From IMG/VR virus record IMGVR_UViG_3300005600_000076, positions 1-24,857 of that record: a stretch of 24,857 nucleotides of DNA. One strand, 5' to 3'. Below, one piece after another: positions 5,851-22,689 of this stretch. This DNA is from a virus. The notes under the pieces are model-generated. The model searched no databases. It saw only the letters and a list, made by a program, of their open reading frames with translations, and was not told the DNA's origin. Both the position numbers and the translations under genes were made by a program. Numbering within the stretch: position 1 is the stretch's first letter; every line of letters starts with the position of its first letter.

Positions 5851-6099
5851 ATGGCTACCATTACGATTACGAGCCCCAATGTAACAAAGTCCTTCTCGCT
5901 CGATGCGGCGCAAGTCACGCGCCTGCTCGATTACGCGGGCTATGCGCTAGGCCCGGACGCGACCAATCTTGAGAAAGAGGAGTGGGTTGTCCGCCGCTTC
6001 TTTGTCCTGATGCGCGATGACCTGAAAACTCACGAGGATCAGCAGGGCTACAAGACGGTACGGGAAACGAACGCAAAGCTGCCCGTCACGGAGGTCTGA
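5851..6099 (+). CDS. Small hypothetical tail-associated protein
   Basis: An 82-residue protein beginning MATITITSPNVTKSFSLDAA, with a beta-like N-terminus and a charged helical second half (EEWVVRRFFVLMRDDLKTHE). GAGG lies upstream of the ATG, only 8 bases after the fibre stop, and its own TGA overlaps the next ATG (TGATG, 6097-6101). The compact helical part and the place directly after the fibre would suit a small fibre-assembly or attachment partner, but no family is recognised and this is inference from position. Confidence 0.6.
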   Translation: MATITITSPNVTKSFSLDAAQVTRLLDYAGYALGPDATNLEKEEWVVRRFFVLMRDDLKTHEDQQGYKTVRETNAKLPVTEV

Positions 6100-6788
6100 T
6101 GCCTCTTACAACCACAAACCTTGTTGGCTTTGGGGGAAAGCGTGCCGCCGCTGGTGGTGGGGGTGCCGACCTTACATTTATTGGCAGCACCACAAATTCC
6201 GGCACGGGCTACAGCGTCTCATTCCACGGGTCTGCTGCCGCTGGCGACCTCGCAATTATGGCGGAATGCTTTGACGACGCCACGGCGTTGACGGGAACGA
6301 CAGCCACAGCCCCGACAGGGTGGTCAGTTTTCGATGATACGGTTACGACAAGTGTGAACTATCGCGCTTCGAAAGACCAACAGGTCGGCGTTTATTACAA
6401 GGTCCTGACATCGGGTGATATCTCCACGGGGAGCGTTACGTCACAGATCACCGCAGGCGGCGATGTTCTTCTTGGTATGGCGTGTCAAATATGGAGGCCC
6501 GCCAGCACGCCCACGGTCAGCACGCAGGAAGTTACAAACTCCGTCATCTCTGACACGAGCGTTACGTCCTCAAGTGGTACGCCGCCCTGTATAGTGGTGG
6601 GAGCGGTGGCGGGGTCTTTTGGGGGGGCTTACACTCCTGCCTTCGACCAAGTTGCAGAGGTTGCGAACAACGTCGCGCTCGGCGCGACATTCTATGATGC
6701 GTCACCGCTGGATCAGACGGTTGAGGACAATGGGACGACCACTGACGAAAACAACTTCGCGATTTATGCAAACCTGAGCTTCGCATGA
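6099..6788 (+). CDS. Beta-rich structural protein, probable tail or receptor-binding component
   Basis: A 229-residue protein rich in Thr, Ser, Gly and Ala with almost no Lys. It starts MPLTTTNLVGFGGKRAAAGGGG, where a Gly-rich linker (about residues 12-22) leads into a beta-sandwich-like body containing LAIMAECFDD, APTGWSVFDD and VGVYYKVLTSGD. The APTGW followed by a YYK strand is a pattern seen in phage tail and surface lectin-like domains. It overlaps its neighbours at both ends (TGATG at 6097-6101, ATGA at 6785-6788). It probably forms part of the adsorption apparatus with the fibre gene upstream. No catalytic motif is seen. Confidence 0.6.
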   Translation: MPLTTTNLVGFGGKRAAAGGGGADLTFIGSTTNSGTGYSVSFHGSAAAGDLAIMAECFDDATALTGTTATAPTGWSVFDDTVTTSVNYRASKDQQVGVYYKVLTSGDISTGSVTSQITAGGDVLLGMACQIWRPASTPTVSTQEVTNSVISDTSVTSSSGTPPCIVVGAVAGSFGGAYTPAFDQVAEVANNVALGATFYDASPLDQTVEDNGTTTDENNFAIYANLSFA

Positions 6789-7603
6789 CGAGCGGCATCA
6801 AATGGCTTGCGTCTTACCCCAAGAGCCGCAACACATGGGCGCGGCTGTTTCTGCTGAACTGGTACGCTGACGCGAATGAACCGCTAGATCCGAACGAGTT
6901 AGGCAAAACAAGATTCTGCCCCGCGTGTGATACGCCTTGGCTCTGGGAAGAAGCGACTGGCATGTCCACCGCAGATTTTGCGGGGCTTGGCGAAAAACGC
7001 CAGATGGTGCAATTCAAGATGCGCCCTCATGTGCAGTGGTTCTATCAGCACAAGGAAGAACGCCTTAGTGCGATACCGCCGTATTTGAAGACGCATTCGT
7101 CCAACGCCAATTTTGGCGGGCTGTTTCCGTTCATCAATTGGGGTGTAACGGATTCGGCAGTCTATTTGATTCGCGACCCGCGAAGGGTTGCGCCGTCACT
7201 GGCCGACCACATGGGCATGGGTATGGACGAGGCTGTCAACAGTATGGCGGACGATGACTATTCAACAGAGCGCGACGATGCGTTTTTGCTGCTTCTCGAA
7301 TCATGGTCCTCCCATGTTAATGGGTGGAAGAACCACGCGACAGTTATTCGCGCGGAAGATTTGCCCGATGCTTTTGAAGATCTGCTAAAGGCGTTTGGAC
7401 TCCCGACAGACGAGCGACTTGAAAAAGCAAAAGCGTTTACGCGCCTCGAAGTTCTGAAACAATTTGAAGAAGAAAATGGCTTCAACGAAGCGGTTGGCGG
7501 CCAGAAATTCTTTGGCGGTAAGCGCCGCACACTGACGAAATCGCAGACCGAACGTATAGAAGAAACCCACGAAAAGGTGATGCGTGAATTCGGATACCTT
7601 TAA
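6785..7603 (+). CDS. PAPS-dependent sulfotransferase
   Basis: A 272-residue enzyme expected to move a sulfuryl group from PAPS to a hydroxyl or amine, probably on a carbohydrate or lipid. The 5'-phosphosulfate loop is near the N-terminus: ASYPKSRNTW at residues 9-18, where the usual Gly of YPKSGxTW is Arg15. LKTH at 101-104 supplies the likely catalytic His104. The 3'-phosphate-binding element is YLIRDPRRVAPSLADH at 127-142, with Arg130 and Ser138 in the expected places. The C-terminus (GGKRRTLTKSQTERIEE and the final REFGYL) matches the end of cytosolic-type sulfotransferases. Length fits the family and no signal peptide or membrane segment is seen, so it should act in the host cytoplasm. 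It overlaps the previous gene by ATGA and the next by 20 bases. The acceptor is unknown. Confidence 0.85.
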   Translation: MTSGIKWLASYPKSRNTWARLFLLNWYADANEPLDPNELGKTRFCPACDTPWLWEEATGMSTADFAGLGEKRQMVQFKMRPHVQWFYQHKEERLSAIPPYLKTHSSNANFGGLFPFINWGVTDSAVYLIRDPRRVAPSLADHMGMGMDEAVNSMADDDYSTERDDAFLLLLESWSSHVNGWKNHATVIRAEDLPDAFEDLLKAFGLPTDERLEKAKAFTRLEVLKQFEEENGFNEAVGGQKFFGGKRRTLTKSQTERIEETHEKVMREFGYL

Positions 7604-8360
7604 AGAGGTCACTGGCGTTTATATTGCGGTCCCTTGTTATGGGATGCAGCTCTATTACCAGTGCGCCCACTCTCTTATGGCCGAAGTGATGCTGCTCAGG
7701 GATAATGGCATCCCAGCCGCCATAGAGTTTCTTGGGAACGAGAGCCATATTGACCGCGCCCGCATGTATTTACAGGCGTGTTTCATGGGCGGCACCGAGT
7801 TCTCGCATATCATGTTTGTGGACTCAGACATCGAGTTCCCGCGCGGGTCTATTCTTCGCCTTCTGGGGCACTCTCAGGGCGTCGTGGGCGGGGGGTATCC
7901 CAAGAAGGGGTATCCACTCAATTACGCGGTGAACCTTAGTGCTGACGCTTCTGAGGCGGCTGTTGACACCTTTGATGAGAAGAAGCTCTACCCGGTCGAT
8001 GATCTGGGGACCGGGTTTCTGATGATCCACAGGAAAGCATTTGAAATCATGCGCGAACACTACCCCGATTGTGGGGCAGAGCCCAGCGCGGAACAATTGG
8101 AAGTCTTCCCCGAAGAACTCCATGAGCCAATACGTCATTGGTACACGGACTTTTTTCACTCGGGGTTCTTCCCAAGTAAAAGAACCGGAAAACGGCTGTT
8201 TAAATCTGAAGACTATGCCTTTTGCCGGAGATGGGGTGACGCCGGGGGCATTGTATATCTCGACCCCGAAATCCCGCTCAATCACATTGGAGCCCACAAA
8301 TTTGCGGGCGATGTTGGGCGGCTAATTACCACCATCAATGAGGAACTGAAAAATGAGTGA
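7584..8360 (+). CDS. GT-A type glycosyltransferase
   Basis: A 258-residue soluble enzyme likely to transfer a sugar from a nucleotide-sugar donor. The N-terminal beta strand is VYIAVPCYG (12-20). The metal- and nucleotide-binding DxD motif is FVDSDIEF (78-85). LGTGFLMIHRKAF (141-153) and SEDYAFCRRW (208-217, with acidic residues in the place of the catalytic base) follow. LNHIGAHKF (232-240) offers late His ligands typical of phage GT-A enzymes. The start must be GTG 7584 or later, because an in-frame TGA lies at 7578-7580; AAAAGG is upstream, and the next Met (residue 21) would remove the first strand. It overlaps the sulfotransferase by 20 bases, so the two are made together and may act on the same glycan. 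Donor and acceptor cannot be read from the sequence. Confidence 0.82.
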   Translation: MNSDTFKEVTGVYIAVPCYGMQLYYQCAHSLMAEVMLLRDNGIPAAIEFLGNESHIDRARMYLQACFMGGTEFSHIMFVDSDIEFPRGSILRLLGHSQGVVGGGYPKKGYPLNYAVNLSADASEAAVDTFDEKKLYPVDDLGTGFLMIHRKAFEIMREHYPDCGAEPSAEQLEVFPEELHEPIRHWYTDFFHSGFFPSKRTGKRLFKSEDYAFCRRWGDAGGIVYLDPEIPLNHIGAHKFAGDVGRLITTINEELKNE

Positions 8361-8760
8361 TCGTGAATTTTTTGAAACCGGGCAGGGCAGCGAAGTTACC
8401 CAAGCCAACATGGAAAAGGCTACGCGGCTTGTTGTGCCGGTAACGCTTGGGACTGCCGCCACTACGGCGCTGACCCATTACGCGGTGCTGCCCGCTGACT
8501 GCTATCTCCTTGGCATTCACGCGGGCGTTACCGGGGACCCCGGCGCATCCGCCGCTGCCTTTACTGTCAAGAACGCTGGCGGGACCGTGACCTATGGAAC
8601 GGCTACTGTCGCGAATGGTGCGTCAGCCGGTGATTCCGCGAGCGGTGATCTGACGCGCACCTATGTCGCTGCGGGCACAGCCGTTGAAGTTGAAAAGGGC
8701 GTGACCACGAATGCTATTTCAGGGTCCGTGACTGTCGTTGCGACAACGCTGAACGCCTAA
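8353..8760 (+). CDS. Beta-rich small structural protein, possible decoration or fibre accessory
   Basis: A 135-residue protein beginning MSDREFFETGQGSEVTQANM and then almost entirely short beta strands rich in Ala, Thr, Gly and Val, with hardly any Lys, Arg or aromatic residues in the second half. GAGGAA (8339-8344) lies 8 bases before the ATG, and it overlaps the glycosyltransferase by 8 bases. The composition resembles small capsid-cementing or decoration proteins. The place between the glycan-modifying enzymes and terL would also allow a virion surface protein that the enzymes modify. Both ideas are inference; no family is recognised. Confidence 0.55.
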   Translation: MSDREFFETGQGSEVTQANMEKATRLVVPVTLGTAATTALTHYAVLPADCYLLGIHAGVTGDPGASAAAFTVKNAGGTVTYGTATVANGASAGDSASGDLTRTYVAAGTAVEVEKGVTTNAISGSVTVVATTLNA

Positions 8761-8765
8761 CCTGT

Positions 8766-10292
8766 ATGTCTCTCCAGGGCCTCGCAGCACTCCAAACGCT
8801 TGCCGAGGTTCGGAGGGGCAACAGACTTACTCAATACAGACCGTTCGGGCATCCTGATACGATTTGCCCGGACGGTGAGTTGTGGAAAGCAATGCACGAC
8901 CGGGGTCTTTGGGACACTTGGTCAAACAAGCCGTGGCAATCCGAGTTCCACAAAGCAGGCGCGCACTGTCAAGAGCGTATGCTGATGGCCGCGAACCGGC
9001 CTGGCAAAACTTATTCAGCGGCGGCGGAAGCGGCAATGCACGCCACGGGGCTATACCCCGACTGGTGGGAAGGCCGCAGATTCGAAAAAGAAACCCTTGG
9101 CTGGGTTGGCTCTGTCACGAACGAGGCGAGCCGCGACATCGTTCAAAAGGAATTGCTCGGGGGTCTTGGCGAGGAACTTGGTTCCGGCCTTATCCCCAAG
9201 CATTTGATTGTCGGTAAACCGCAACCCCGTCAAGCGGGCATCAGCGGCGTTATCGACAGGGTGAAAGTCAGACATTCATCCGGTGGAATCTCCACCATTG
9301 TGTTCAAGTCCTACGATCAGGGCTGGCGCAAATGGCAGGGGACGGCACCCGATTGGGTATGGCTTGATGAAGAACCCGACGCGTCAACAAGCAATGAGCA
9401 GAAAATTTACTCTGAGGCGCTGACACGGGTTTTGTCTTCACGGGGCATCATAATGGTGACTTTCACCCCCCTATTGGGCAAGACCGAACTTGTCGAGCAC
9501 TTCATGGATGCAGAGCCGGGCTCTGGCGTCTGGCTTGGAACAGCCACATGGGAAGACGCCCCGCATCTGGACAGAACAGAGCGCGAGCGAATGCTGAAAA
9601 GCTACCCCGCGCACGAGCGCGAAACCCGTGCGATGGGTGTACCCATGATGGGTGAGGGCCGTGTGTTCACGGTGCCGGAAGACAGCATTGTGGTTCAACC
9701 CTTCGAGATCCCGCGCCACTGGGCGCGCATCTGCGGGATTGACTACGGCATTGACCACCCGGCAGCGGGCGCATGGCTCGCCTACGACCGGGATACAGAT
9801 ACGGTCTATTTATACGACTGCTATAAGGAATCAGGTCAGACCGCCGCCTATCACGCGGCAAGGCTGAATGGTCCGAACAACAAGAACCATTGGATTCCTG
9901 TTGCCGGGCCGCATGACGGGATGAACCGCGAGAAGTCTGGCGGCTTGGCCCTTGCTGAATCCTACCGCCGCCATGGCGTGAATATGCTGCCCTATACGGC
10001 GCACTACAAACCGAGAGCGGGCGACAACCCCAAGCTCGGCCCACAGGCAACAGAGCCGATTGTTGATGAAATCCTTGACCGCATGTTGACGGGGCGGTTC
10101 AAGGTGTTTGCGAATTGCGGGCCTTGGCTCGATGAGTTCAGGTTCTACCACAGGAAAGACGGGAAGCTCGTGGCGACAAAAGACGATGCACTCAAGGCGA
10201 GTTTCTACGGCCTGATGATGCTCCGGTACGCGCGCACAAATGTTCAAGCGAACGCTGCTTCCGGGTCAAGATATACGCAGCCGGTTTACTAA
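8766..10292 (+). CDS. terL: Terminase large subunit (packaging ATPase and nuclease)
   Basis: This 508-residue motor drives DNA into the prohead and cuts the concatemer. The ATPase part has a deviant Walker A AANRPGKT at residues 75-82, typical of terminases, a Walker B VWLDEE at 198-203 with catalytic Glu, and a coupling motif MVTFTPLLGKTEL at 230-242. The nuclease part begins with CGIDYGID (323-330, metal-binding Asp326), continues with GPHDGMN, and ends with KDDALKASFYGLMM near the C-terminus, which carries the late Asp. Length is normal. There is no clear ribosome site before ATG 8766, only 5 bases after the previous stop, so translation may be coupled. Its TAA shares a base with the next ATG (TAATG). 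The small subunit candidate lies far upstream at 642-1121. Confidence 0.95.
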   Translation: MSLQGLAALQTLAEVRRGNRLTQYRPFGHPDTICPDGELWKAMHDRGLWDTWSNKPWQSEFHKAGAHCQERMLMAANRPGKTYSAAAEAAMHATGLYPDWWEGRRFEKETLGWVGSVTNEASRDIVQKELLGGLGEELGSGLIPKHLIVGKPQPRQAGISGVIDRVKVRHSSGGISTIVFKSYDQGWRKWQGTAPDWVWLDEEPDASTSNEQKIYSEALTRVLSSRGIIMVTFTPLLGKTELVEHFMDAEPGSGVWLGTATWEDAPHLDRTERERMLKSYPAHERETRAMGVPMMGEGRVFTVPEDSIVVQPFEIPRHWARICGIDYGIDHPAAGAWLAYDRDTDTVYLYDCYKESGQTAAYHAARLNGPNNKNHWIPVAGPHDGMNREKSGGLALAESYRRHGVNMLPYTAHYKPRAGDNPKLGPQATEPIVDEILDRMLTGRFKVFANCGPWLDEFRFYHRKDGKLVATKDDALKASFYGLMMLRYARTNVQANAASGSRYTQPVY

Positions 10293-18341: not shown

Positions 18342-19246
18342 TGGCTAACAATCTTGGAATCATGCTCGGCGGTGCGGTTCAGCAGCGCAACACAGTGGCG
18401 CAACAAGGGCTCCAAACTCGCGCTCTCGACATGCAGCAAGAGCAAGCCCGCCGCGCTCAACAGCAAGCGCAATATCAACAGATACAGGACCAAATGGCTA
18501 CGGGGCTGGAACAGGCGCGAAGCATTGTCGAGAATGGGGGCGACCCCTCGTCTGTGATCCAAGCCTATGACCAACAGTTCACGGGCATTGTGAATAGCAT
18601 TGCTAATTCAGACCCGAGTTTTGCGAATACTCTGGGCACTACATGGCGGTCTGGCGTTGAGTCTATTCTATCAGCCCCGACGCCTGAGCAGGCGGCGACC
18701 CGGCAAGGTGAGCTAAGCGCCACTCAATCAATGGCAGAACGAAATGCCCTTGTCGCTGGCGGCGCACCTGACCCATGGGCGACAAGTGAGCCGGTCCCGT
18801 CTTCAGGCATGTTCGACGAACGGGGACGGGCCAACCCCACAACGCAGCGCCTTGTTCAGAGCACGGTGGGCGCTCTCTATGGGGCGACCTTTGATGAGGC
18901 GGGAAATTTTGTGCTCCCCGGCGATGCAAATCAACTCCGCGAGGCCACGGAGGTAACGGCAGAGGCCATTCAGCTTCTTGAAAGAATGTCTGAGATTATG
19001 ACCCCTGCGGAGGCGTCCCTCATTGCCCAGCGCAATGTGCGTTCCCGTGCAGGAGGAATTACAGGCGCAGTCACAAGTGGCGCGGAGTCCCTTCCCGCCG
19101 CTGGATCGGCTCCAGATAATCCGCTTCCGCCCCCCCAATCCCAAGCCGAACTTCAAGACGGTGCATGGTATCGCACGCCGGGCGGGGAAATTGTGCAGTA
19201 TCGGGGCGAAAAATTCTATGACCGTCAAGGTAATGAAATCCAGTAA
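18341..19246 (+). CDS. Internal virion (ejection) protein, T7 gp15-like position
   Basis: A 301-residue Gln/Ala-rich protein. Residues 14-60 form a strongly polar coiled coil (QQRNTVAQQGLQTRALDMQQ and beyond); the middle, with TFDEAGNFVLPGDANQLREA, is helical; the last 30 residues (DGAWYRTPGGEIVQYRGEKF) form a small SH3-like beta motif, common as a terminal tag on phage internal proteins. It shares a base with the upstream stop (TAATG), and its own TAA overlaps the giant protein's ATG, so the three ejection genes are coupled. It is shorter than T7 gp15 (747 residues), hence only positional similarity is claimed. Confidence 0.62.
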   Translation: MANNLGIMLGGAVQQRNTVAQQGLQTRALDMQQEQARRAQQQAQYQQIQDQMATGLEQARSIVENGGDPSSVIQAYDQQFTGIVNSIANSDPSFANTLGTTWRSGVESILSAPTPEQAATRQGELSATQSMAERNALVAGGAPDPWATSEPVPSSGMFDERGRANPTTQRLVQSTVGALYGATFDEAGNFVLPGDANQLREATEVTAEAIQLLERMSEIMTPAEASLIAQRNVRSRAGGITGAVTSGAESLPAAGSAPDNPLPPPQSQAELQDGAWYRTPGGEIVQYRGEKFYDRQGNEIQ

Positions 19247-22200
19247 TGGCCTCATTCGAAGAACTCTTTGGCCAGCCAGAGGCGACTACAGCCTCAACGT
19301 TTGACAATTTGTTCGGCAGCACAGAACAGCCCGCGAGTTCACCAGACCTCCCCGTCGTTCCGGTTGGCGAGGCCATGCTTGCCCCGGGCACCCCTGTGTT
19401 CACGAGCGAAAACCCGGAGTTTATCACTCAGGAAGAAGCCACCAGGCGGCAACAGGAAACACTAGCACGGGAACAAAGCCCCGGAGAGGGCGGGACGCCA
19501 TTTTCTCGGATCTTTGGCGCTGCTGTTCGTGGGGGCGTGGACGCTGCAAACCCAAGAGAGCCCCTTGGCCTGAACCCGGAATCTCTGGATCAGGTGCGGG
19601 ACTATGGGATATTCAATGCTCCTGAAGACGTAGGGCAAGTCGGGATAACGACAACGCCCCGTGATCTTCTTGAGGGGGTAACGCGGGTAGGGACCGCTGG
19701 GGTTGATTTTGCAATTCGCTCTGTTGATGTCCCGATCAGGGCTGGTGTTGAGGCCATTGTCCAGACATCCCGCGAACTCGGCGCAACATCATCTCAGGCC
19801 GACCGGCTCAGAGACGACATTGACAGCATTCTATTCTCTGCCGCGTCGGTTACAGGTATGGCTGCCCCCTCCGCAGCCCCTACCGTCTCAGGGGCCACCA
19901 GAGCCCGCACAGTGCGTAATATTGAGCGGGCAGTGGATGAGGCCACGGACGGCCTTCCTGAGCCTGTACGGGCCGCAGCGCGGACGAGAGCCGCAGAAAC
20001 GGCGAACAGCTCACTTGATGATGCCCTTCGCGCCGCTGTGGACGAGAAGATCGGCGTCCCCACAAATATCGAAATTGCCGAAAGCGCCTACCGCGCCGAA
20101 TACGGTGGTGCAGTGCGGAATACTGTGGAGCGGTTCAGAACAGAGGTGGTTGACGGGTTTGATCCTGTTCGCCGCATTGAGGAAGTAGCGCGTGAGCGCG
20201 GGGTTATACCCCCCGATGTGAGCCCGTATCGTGATTTGCGCCTGTTGCGAGGCGCGCCCGGAGCCATTGAAGCGATGCAACGTCGAGGGACACTGACATG
20301 GACAGAAGCTGGGGACATCGGGTTCTCTGGCGAGGGGCTTGTTTCTGTATTCCGTGACGTTGGCGACGATATGTCGGAGGCCATGAGGTACTTTGCTGGC
20401 CGACGCGCGCAGGAATTATCCGCTCGCGGGCTTGAAACACCGTTTACGCCCGAGCAAGTCGAATGGATGGTAGGGCGCTCGCGCCTGAATCCGGCCATTG
20501 AAGATGCGTTCAATCGCTATCAGGAGTTCAATCAACGAAATCTGACGTTCGCGCAGCAGTCCGGGCTTATCAGCGAGGAAACGCTGGCGTCTCTGACCGA
20601 GGCCGGGCAAAGCTATGTCCCATTCTACCGTGTTATGGACGAGGGCGGCGTTGGCGGTAGTGGTAGCAACCCGCTTCTCCGGCTTCGTGGTTCTGACCGA
20701 AACGTCAATGAGATCATGTCGAACATCAATCGCAATGCGATTATGTGGACAAACGCCAGCCTTGAGAACCACGCTAAGCTGCAAGTCTATGACATGATTG
20801 ACAATCTCGGTGTCGAGGGGATTGCGCGCCGCATCACAAACATGCCGGAGGAAGTCTTCGCTGCGGACGCCCGCGTTCGTGAGGCGCTTGCGGATCTAGG
20901 GCTGAGTGATGACGGGCTCGTTCAAGCATTCACAGGAAGACGGCTTGAGAATATCCGAGTCAACGGGAACCCAGTCGATGCTGTGTTCCGAGACGGTCAG
21001 CGTATTCTGTACGAAATTCAAGACCCCATGCTTTACAAAGCAATCCAGCATGTCAGCCCGCAGGCATTGAGCCCTGTTGTTCGGTATCTATCAGCGCCCG
21101 CTCAGTTGTTGCGCGGCGGCGTCACGCTGTCACCGGACTTTATCATGCGAAATATGATGCGTGATACTGAAACCGCGTTCATTCAATCAGGCGGGACATT
21201 CATCCCCTTCGTTGATACTGCGCGCGGCGTTGTAACACGGGTGCGTCGAGACGATGACTATTGGACGGCGATGGCGAATGGGGCAGGGTTTGGTTCATTC
21301 TACCAAAATGAATTCCACCTTGCCGATGGCGCGTCTGACCTATACCGCCGCTTTGGGCTAAACTATGAGCGCCAGGTTCTTGACACGCCCGCCAAGATCG
21401 GACGCTTCTTCGAAGATTCTGTCGCCGGTATAGGGCGCGGAATTGAATCCGCTGCGTCGGTCACAGAGCAGGCGTCACGGATGAGAGAGTTTCAAATCCA
21501 GCGCGCGGGCGGGGTAAATGCTCGTGCTGCCGCGATGGGTGCGCGCGATGTGGCGACAGACTTTTCAGTGCGCGGCACAAGCCCGACCATGAAAGCGATG
21601 ACGGCGATGGTGCCGTTTATGAACGCTCGGATTCAGGGGCTCGACCGCATGGCGCGGCTTGGTGCGGAAAACCCGGCCCGCATGTTTACCCGCTCGTTCC
21701 TGTCACAGACGGTTCCGGCGATGGCCGCGTATCAGGCAAACCGGGATGACCCGAATTATTGGGCATTGCCGGACTGGGTGCGAGATCAGCATTTTATTGT
21801 GCCGCACTATAATGACGCTGGTGAATATGAACCTTATCTAATTCCCAAGGCATTTGAATACGGGACAATTTTCGCCAGCCAAGCAGAGCGCCTTTCACGA
21901 TCTATTGAAACACGTCACGGGCGGTCGTTTGCTGATTTCTGGATGCGGAGCCTGAGCCAGACATTTGCCATGAACCCTGTTCCCCAATTTGCGCAGCCTG
22001 TTCAAGACATCGCGACCAACAGGAACTTCTCTGGAAATCCTATTGTACCGGCAGACCTCCAAAGTGTTCGTCCGTCAGACCAATATCGCCCTTACACGAG
22101 TGATACAATCGTGCAGCTCGCCCGCGCTATGCGGGAAGAAACGGGGGTGGAGATTAGCCCGATACAGGTTGAGCACCTATTGACCGGGTACACAGGAACA

Positions 22201-22689
22201 CTTGGTGTTTACGGTCTGAGTGCCGCTGACTGGCTTACCAGATCGCTTGATGAAGATTCAGGCTCGGACCCCACGGCGCGTCTTGATGAGATGCCTCTCA
22301 TGCGCTCGTTCATGCGGGAAAGCCCGCTGCGGGGAACCCAGTATGAGTCAGACTTCTACGAATTGCTTTCTTCAGCCCGTGAGCAAGCGACAACGTTCCG
22401 GCTTATGCAACAGGGGCTCAGACCAGACGCCACATTCACCGAGAATGAGCTGTGGCTGCGTGGCGTTGCCCCCGTTCTTGAACGCATGTCCACAGAACTT
22501 GCGGGTATGAGGCGCACCATGCGCCAAGTGCAGACAGACAGAAATCTAAGCGCGGACGAAAAGCGACAGCGCATAGATAGCATTCAAGCATCAATGAATG
22601 AACTCATGCTCGGCGTAATGCGCAGTCTGCCAGAAGATGAACTAGAACGGCGCGGCTTACTGAGCCCACCACCTGACCGCACAAACTAA
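19246..22689 (+). CDS. Giant ejection (internal virion) protein with LPD38-like region
   Basis: The largest head protein after the fibre, 1147 residues, in the T7 gp16 position. The N-terminus repeats a short tag: FEELFG (4-9) and FDNLFGS (19-25). The central part contains QALSPVVRYLSAPAQLLRGG and LSPDFIMRNMMRDTETAFIQ (about residues 605-650) and, near 780-815, TMKAMTAMVPFMNARIQGLD. This combination is the pattern I recall for the large polyvalent-protein domain LPD38 in podoviral virion proteins. The C-terminal 150 residues are helical and charged (RRTMRQVQTDRNLSADEKRQ). No lysozyme or transglycosylase catalytic motif was noticed, unlike T7 gp16. It is expected to be packed in the capsid and ejected to help DNA across the cell envelope. 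A moonlighting enzymatic role cannot be excluded. Confidence 0.72.
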   Translation: MASFEELFGQPEATTASTFDNLFGSTEQPASSPDLPVVPVGEAMLAPGTPVFTSENPEFITQEEATRRQQETLAREQSPGEGGTPFSRIFGAAVRGGVDAANPREPLGLNPESLDQVRDYGIFNAPEDVGQVGITTTPRDLLEGVTRVGTAGVDFAIRSVDVPIRAGVEAIVQTSRELGATSSQADRLRDDIDSILFSAASVTGMAAPSAAPTVSGATRARTVRNIERAVDEATDGLPEPVRAAARTRAAETANSSLDDALRAAVDEKIGVPTNIEIAESAYRAEYGGAVRNTVERFRTEVVDGFDPVRRIEEVARERGVIPPDVSPYRDLRLLRGAPGAIEAMQRRGTLTWTEAGDIGFSGEGLVSVFRDVGDDMSEAMRYFAGRRAQELSARGLETPFTPEQVEWMVGRSRLNPAIEDAFNRYQEFNQRNLTFAQQSGLISEETLASLTEAGQSYVPFYRVMDEGGVGGSGSNPLLRLRGSDRNVNEIMSNINRNAIMWTNASLENHAKLQVYDMIDNLGVEGIARRITNMPEEVFAADARVREALADLGLSDDGLVQAFTGRRLENIRVNGNPVDAVFRDGQRILYEIQDPMLYKAIQHVSPQALSPVVRYLSAPAQLLRGGVTLSPDFIMRNMMRDTETAFIQSGGTFIPFVDTARGVVTRVRRDDDYWTAMANGAGFGSFYQNEFHLADGASDLYRRFGLNYERQVLDTPAKIGRFFEDSVAGIGRGIESAASVTEQASRMREFQIQRAGGVNARAAAMGARDVATDFSVRGTSPTMKAMTAMVPFMNARIQGLDRMARLGAENPARMFTRSFLSQTVPAMAAYQANRDDPNYWALPDWVRDQHFIVPHYNDAGEYEPYLIPKAFEYGTIFASQAERLSRSIETRHGRSFADFWMRSLSQTFAMNPVPQFAQPVQDIATNRNFSGNPIVPADLQSVRPSDQYRPYTSDTIVQLARAMREETGVEISPIQVEHLLTGYTGTLGVYGLSAADWLTRSLDEDSGSDPTARLDEMPLMRSFMRESPLRGTQYESDFYELLSSAREQATTFRLMQQGLRPDATFTENELWLRGVAPVLERMSTELAGMRRTMRQVQTDRNLSADEKRQRIDSIQASMNELMLGVMRSLPEDELERRGLLSPPPDRTN

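Follow-up and report, generated by a model that had tools for sequence, protein, structure and literature searches.

What are a sulfotransferase and a glycosyltransferase doing between the tail fibre genes and the terminase gene of a phage? We address this question for the window, by which we mean the whole 24,857-nt stretch of viral DNA analysed here (record G000), which is 99.994% identical to IMGVR_UViG_3300010430_000148 (41,982 nt) across the 16,357 nt compared. The original prediction, made from the letters of the DNA, had placed two enzyme genes that overlap by 20 bases between the fibre genes and the gene for the terminase large subunit (terL), and had proposed that their products jointly build a sulfated sugar on the virion or on the host surface. 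The open reading frames and the family match of the terL product bear out the arrangement (Table 1). The genes run in the order fibre, 82-aa protein, 229-aa protein, sulfotransferase (ST), glycosyltransferase (GT), 135-aa beta-rich protein, terL, portal-like protein, scaffold-like protein and major head protein. We call the first of these a fibre on the basis of its length, composition and place, and after the name given in the original prediction, because Pfam and PHROG gave no match; the 229-aa protein also matches no Pfam or PHROG family.

Table 1 Features of the fibre–terL block, in window coordinates.
Feature	Position	Strand	Basis or remark
Tail fibre-like protein, 1278 aa	2006..5842	+	ORF; C-terminal half matched by G048 (blastp)
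82-aa protein	5851..6099	+	84% identity in G048
229-aa protein, probably beta-rich	6099..6788	+	60% identity in G048, there directly upstream of ST
PAPS-type sulfotransferase (ST), 272 aa, ATG start, stop 7603	6785..7603	+	Fold, profile, 45 aligned viral relatives
5'-phosphosulfate loop YPKSRNTW, ST residues 11-18	6815..6838	+	R replaces glycine at 15
H104 within KTH, expected catalytic base	7094..7096	+	Invariant in 46 rows
R130 to S138, expected 3'-phosphate binding element	7172..7198	+	Both ends invariant, 46 rows
GT-A glycosyltransferase (GT), 258 aa, GTG start, stop 8360	7584..8360	+	phrog_1574, fold
DSD metal-binding motif, GT residues 80-82	7821..7829	+	D80, D82 invariant in 9 rows
135-aa beta-rich protein, candidate virion protein	8353..8760	+	Weak phrog_34374 match, 0.012
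Terminase large subunit (terL), block end	8766..10292	+	Terminase_6N 5.7e-21

The genes in this block are tightly packed. Successive overlaps of 4 nt (229-aa gene and ST), 20 nt (ST and GT) and 8 nt (GT and the 135-aa beta-rich gene), followed by a gap of 5 nt before terL, suggest that the genes from that for the 229-aa protein through terL may form one translation unit. When positions 6785–8360 were shuffled 500 times with dinucleotide composition kept, a stop-free run of at least 258 codons arose once; ST and GT are real genes, and both proteins have diverged relatives. An error in a stop codon, coordinate or frame was rejected. Neither enzyme contains a transmembrane-like stretch (highest 19-residue hydropathy 0.99 for ST and 0.90 for GT), and no membrane-bound glycosyltransferase or flippase gene was recognised beside them among the gene calls of the window. 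The 135-aa protein has a short match (47% identity over 47 columns) at the same place in a related contig, G049. A search of NCBIfam returned nothing useful. Elsewhere in the late region, positions 19246–22689 encode a protein of 1147 aa.

The identity of ST as a PAPS-type sulfotransferase, which the original prediction had read from short motifs, is borne out by profile and predicted structure. Against the Pfam family Sulfotransfer_1 (PF00685) the window ST scores just under the cut-off (E 1.5e-4; 21.7 bits, cut-off 22), and of eight viral relatives seven score above it and one at 22.0. The window ST has no match to Sulfotransfer_3 (PF13469) at E 1 or to any PHROG at 0.1, and all nine of the Sulfotransfer_1-type viral STs examined lack a PHROG match. 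A search with the single sequence recovered Teg12 at E 0.0018, and a profile built from the window ST and 45 viral relatives recovered Teg14 and Teg12 at E 6e-34 to 2e-33. The predicted structure (pLDDT 94.8, pTM 0.91) superposes on Teg12 with a Z score of 19.1 (3.1 Å over 221 residues), with the PAPS-sulfotransferase fold spanning residues 2–272, and also matches StaL (Z 18.3), Teg14 (17.7) and the SULT enzymes (approximately 14–16). Taken as a group, Teg12, Teg14 and StaL share this fold with the window ST (Z 17.5–19.1 over 206–221 residues; profile E 6e-34 to 3e-24), but they are only about 22% identical to it and are bacterial enzymes that tailor glycopeptide antibiotics.

In an alignment (A3) of 46 of the 54 STs, from which eight were left out, residues K13, S14, N16, T17, W18, K102, H104, R130, P132 and S138 are invariant. 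By analogy with the SULT enzymes, H104 is expected to be the catalytic base, and R130 and S138 are expected to bind the 3'-phosphate. Conservation of the 5'-phosphosulfate loop is not an independent test, because many of the relatives were picked by a YPKSG[NT]TW DNA pattern; residues 102–138, which lie outside the picking motif, do provide one. The claim that the core motifs of ST are intact holds for K13, T17, W18, H104, R130 and S138 and fails for G15R and Y190A, at positions that presumably line the PAPS pocket, judging by SULT structures. Conservation among the other 45 STs reaches at least 90% in 33 columns, and the window ST departs at three of these (G15R, Y26W and Y190A); it is not an outlier in this respect, since four other rows also have three departures. 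Among the 49 columns conserved at the 80% level it has nine departures, the median of the rows being four. Arginine at position 15 was found in no other viral ST, either across the ST loci or in a scan of viral_contigs for that motif, which returned six contigs, namely that of the window and five that have no ST. Six of seven bacterial relatives, which had not been chosen by the glycine, carry YPKSGNTW according to a frame search. The window ST is very likely a sulfotransferase by descent and predicted fold, its activity being uncertain.

The window GT matches phrog_1574, a family without assigned function, at 8e-31, and matches no Pfam family at E 1. Relatives of GT at E 0.01 occur in 64 phage records, including those of Synechococcus phage ACG-2014f, Caulobacter phage Cr30 and Sinorhizobium phage phiM12. 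The predicted structure of GT (pLDDT 83.4, pTM 0.86, with residues 109–113 and 123–128 unsure) matches the glycosyltransferase domain of LH3 (Z 16.6), A197 of the archaeal virus STIV (Z 15.3 over 163 residues), R699 of mimivirus (Z 14.7) and Mnn9 (Z 14.5). A197 was also the sole match when a nine-row GT profile was compared to the PDB at 0.01 (E 5.8e-7), and D80, D82, E209, D210 and H234 are invariant in the nine rows. By its predicted fold and its DxD motif, the window GT is a GT-A glycosyltransferase, in agreement with the original prediction.

To what extent does the arrangement recur? A motif scan yielded 104 viral contig stretches, which contain 53 different near-full-length STs besides that of the window. 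Among these 53, three are followed directly by GT and have terL within two genes: G049 (locus L212; ST 36%, GT 32%, terL 53% and head protein 60% identical to those of the window), G050 (L181; ST 36%, GT 32%, terL 45%, head protein 55%) and G053 (L214; ST 34%, GT 29%, terL 48%). The fibre of G049 clusters with that of the window; in G050 ST is preceded by a 631-aa protein that has no PHROG match and is fibre-like by eye alone, and in G053 the genes ahead of ST differ from fibre-type ones. The original prediction had held that sulfotransferases beside fibre genes are no standard part of podoviral late operons. This agrees with tblastn searches of 50,697 phage records, in which none of four query STs was matched (the search may omit near records) and the window ST found nothing even at E 10, but it has to be set against the recurrence of the 53 further STs in metagenomic viral contigs. 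Single-protein scans of viral_contigs with ST and with GT returned the window's own contig alone, and a scan of genome_contigs with ST returned seven distant bacterial loci (29–34% identity) and no donor or host.

Among 50 records with related terL genes, six carry phrog_1574, in every case upstream of terL (one of the six is a fragment), and one has a weak, below cut-off match to PF00685, which is the different ST of locus L009. The slot before terL is variable in these relatives and holds methyltransferases, a radical-SAM-like protein, other glycosyltransferases, an HNH-like gene and a transposase-like gene, the final three of which we named by eye. At four loci (L008:144-2013, L009:1965-4265, L012:7458-9482 and L013:947-7650) it is occupied by a cassette of sugar-type enzymes, whose contents include glycosyltransferases of phrog_1962 and phrog_14945, an FkbM methyltransferase and a second ST-like type, together with methyltransferases and a radical-SAM-like protein recognised by eye. 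The second ST-like type, a shorter and different protein in the same slot, is found in L008, L009 and L012, which are the closest terL relatives of the window, and has relatives at 18 viral loci. Its matches to PF13469 (0.048 for L008, 3.6e-5 and under the cut-off for L009, none for L012) make its assignment as a putative sulfotransferase a lead.

The nearest relative of the window ST (50% identity) lies in G048, a contig of 46,771 nt that shares with the window the order fibre, 82-aa protein, 229-aa protein and ST. The head and packaging proteins of G048 show no relation to those of the window at blastp 1e-4. The match between the fibres is confined to window residues 703–1278 (42% identity over 602 columns, blastp 1e-3), the N-terminal half of the window fibre not being common to G048, and in the DNA a 1,244-nt block of 68.7% identity reaches from within the fibre gene to within that of ST. 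Also common to G048 and the window are a holin-like gene (98.5%), early genes whose proteins are 62–99% identical, and nucleotide blocks of 73–100% identity, the longest being 91.3% identical over 1,636 nt; the shared holin-like and early genes suggest that both phages probably encounter each other in the same host. Neither phrog_1574 nor PF00535 was found in G048. G048 has the fibre tip and ST without this GT; ST thus accompanies the receptor-binding fibre half and has no need of the phrog_1574 GT. A tie between ST and the virion or adsorption block, which the original prediction had proposed from position, is well supported by gene order and by this apparent swap of the fibre tip. We note that the comparison of L213, L232 and L233 (G048) with the window and L089 involves two uncultured phages whose head genes are unrelated, whereas their fibre tips, STs and holin-like genes correspond, as does a large part of their early regions, with protein identities of up to 99%.

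In a tree of 54 STs, the window, G048, G049, G050 and G053 form one branch (support 97); the tree was made by a quick method and gives weak support to 20 of its 51 inner branches. The remaining STs fall into context classes (14 behind the major head protein, nine beside the phrog_240 head protein or its neighbours, eight beside the phrog_3758 virion protein and 18 others) that cluster in the tree, though not every class forms a single branch. We scanned 43 of 46 direct upstream neighbours, leaving out three bacterial ones (L100/L227 are absent from the gene-called neighbour set). At least 17 of the 43, with no protein counted twice, belong to head or tail PHROGs (phrog_283 major head protein, 6; phrog_3758 virion structural protein, 6; phrog_240 head protein, 4; major tail protein, 1), and others include some kinases, an endonuclease and a regulator. 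Among the best 25 of 46 families for the 74 second-upstream and downstream neighbours are phrog_2941 virion structural protein (14), phrog_283 (10) and several scaffolds. One of three head or virion families lies at most two genes upstream of 28 of 48 viral STs; for the other genes of these 51 loci the figure is 29 of 555. The comparison is descriptive only, because the families were chosen after they had been seen beside STs and because the rows are related. At one locus (L112:7296-7670) an APS kinase (PF01583, 1.6e-21) is encoded between the major head protein and ST; this is 1 of 50 ST records, and PAPS must therefore usually be made by the host. The best 25 of 46 families in the ST neighbour set (A7) also include a 2OG-Fe(II) oxygenase and, at 5.3e-148, a tryptophan halogenase, two further enzymes of the kind that modifies proteins or small molecules, likewise beside virion genes.

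The proposal that ST and GT jointly build a sulfated sugar does not carry over to this wider family: 42 of the 50 ST records lack phrog_1574 and 49 of nearly the same 50 lack PF00535, absence of GT being counted by these two families in records many of which are fragments, and G048 lacks both. A joint product is possible for the window's lineage, though not in general. Phenols are the substrates of the closest solved enzymes, and neither phrog_1574 nor PF00535 was found in most ST records; some STs may therefore sulfate virion tyrosines directly.

How, then, might ST and GT serve the phage? The reading that we favour, to which we give slightly less than an even chance, is that they modify the virion or adsorption apparatus as soluble late enzymes made alongside the fibre and packaging proteins. 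GT would most likely take its sugar from a nucleotide-sugar of the host and attach it to a protein on the phage surface. ST would take sulfate from host-made PAPS and place it on that sugar or on a phage protein itself. The adsorption apparatus would be the likeliest target, whether at the tip of the fibre, at the 229-aa protein or at the 135-aa beta-rich protein, and sulfation would leave the virion with a negatively charged surface that tunes or shields attachment. Counting against modification of the virion are the window ST's substitutions G15R and Y190A, at positions expected to belong to the PAPS pocket, and the rarity of APS kinase among ST records; moreover, the late operon may simply tolerate insertions at a place that adjoins virion genes. 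The sequence comparisons suggest that some phages may decorate their own particles or the host surface with sulfate. The broader proposition, that a little-studied class of uncultured phages adds sulfate to its virions by means of a Sulfotransfer_1 enzyme encoded in the late operon beside capsid, decoration or fibre genes, in several architectures and sometimes with an APS kinase or a dedicated GT, we regard as possible and on the doubtful side. If the virion is the target, sulfation would be a phage coat modification, the sharing of ST together with the fibre tip would be explained, and the sulfotransferases catalogued as viral auxiliary genes, as in the portion of PMC10580990 on which we draw, would gain a concrete role.

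The sharing of ST with the fibre tip fits equally well an enzyme that alters the receptor. ST and GT might modify a host surface polysaccharide or its cytoplasmic precursor, such that progeny escape capture by debris or later phages cannot adsorb, which would amount to a new type of receptor change. Consistent with this possibility, the phages that have exchanged ST and the receptor-binding part of the fibre have early genes in common, and hence probably a host, and relatives carry the phrog_1962 and phrog_14945 glycosyltransferases and the FkbM methyltransferase in the same slot before terL. However, neither enzyme has a membrane-like stretch, no membrane-bound glycosyltransferase or flippase was recognised beside them, and many other STs lie behind head genes rather than fibre genes; we consider the host surface an unlikely target, if a serious contender, and the virion the more likely of the two. 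That the pair is general metabolic cargo acting on a small molecule from a tolerated spot in the late operon, with no tie to the virion or to adsorption, would agree with the variability of the slot and with surveys that, in the text available, catalogue sulfotransferases as auxiliary genes, but seems improbable given that the ST-GT-terL order is kept at ST identities of 34–36% and that ST moves with the fibre tip. Distinctly improbable, in our judgement, is that activity in the window ST is decaying or already altered and that its relatives alone are working enzymes: the substitutions at positions 15 and 190, the nine departures from 49 columns against a median of four and the Pfam score just below the cut-off would fit such decay, whereas the open frame, the retained K13, T17, W18, H104, R130 and S138, the confident model and the four other rows with as many departures at the 90% level argue against it. 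Least probable of all is modification of phage DNA bases; systems for nucleotide modification that are based on glycosyltransferases and sulfotransferases are reported in phages, according to the part of PMC10829341 that cites Iyer et al. 2013, but the pair considered here lies in the fibre–terL block, away from replication genes, and the relatives of ST by fold act on phenols and steroids.

Several known systems resemble the pair in part. STIV encodes A197, has a glycosylated coat protein and requires A197, whose acceptor is unproven (PMC10551542, in the portion available); A197 resembles the window GT in being a viral GT-A protein of similar size and differs in belonging to an archaeal virus and in that the same portion mentions no sulfotransferase partner. 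In mycobacteriophages Che8 and Rita, phage glycosyltransferases are thought to decorate capsid or tail proteins (PMC11256854, PMC12619734), but sulfation goes unmentioned in the excerpts of these reports, and the glycosyltransferases of Maravista lie near the 3' end of the genome. The Manatee Spring podovirus ct7QV12 (MW202713; terL 42% identical) has genes annotated as a glycosyltransferase, a methyltransferase and a PLP enzyme just upstream of terL, but has no sulfotransferase by PF00685. Unlike the seroconverting gtr module, which combines a membrane flippase with a bactoprenol glycosyltransferase, the window GT has no membrane anchor.

Sulfotransferases are catalogued as viral auxiliary genes in several surveys (PMC10580990, PMC8290583, PMC10829341, PMC12285232, PMC11309003), one of which, in its available text, calls the role of phage sulfotransferases unclear. 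Those of OM43 phages and of Synechococcus phage S-SRM01 are Sulfotransfer_3 genes of unstated function in the excerpted text of PMC10580990; they belong to PF13469, whereas the window ST is nearest to PF00685, and the excerpt does not connect them with fibre or head genes. None of the 5.39 million papers searched contains the phrase "phage-encoded sulfotransferase", and our literature searches did not turn up virion sulfation as a phage coat modification. New here are the recurrence of ST-GT-terL, the sharing of ST with the fibre tip, the virion-gene neighbours of viral STs and the case of the APS kinase.

Related contigs show further peculiarities around terL. At L011:937-2736, before terL, we recognised by eye a transposase-like gene and a PAPS-reductase-like gene, and a PAPS reductase is annotated in RHph_N3_2. 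In L010:818-3133 and L014:3-2027, terL itself is apparently split, as judged by eye, at the region of the ATPase P-loop by an intein-like insert of an extra 200–300 residues that ends in HHN before T/S.
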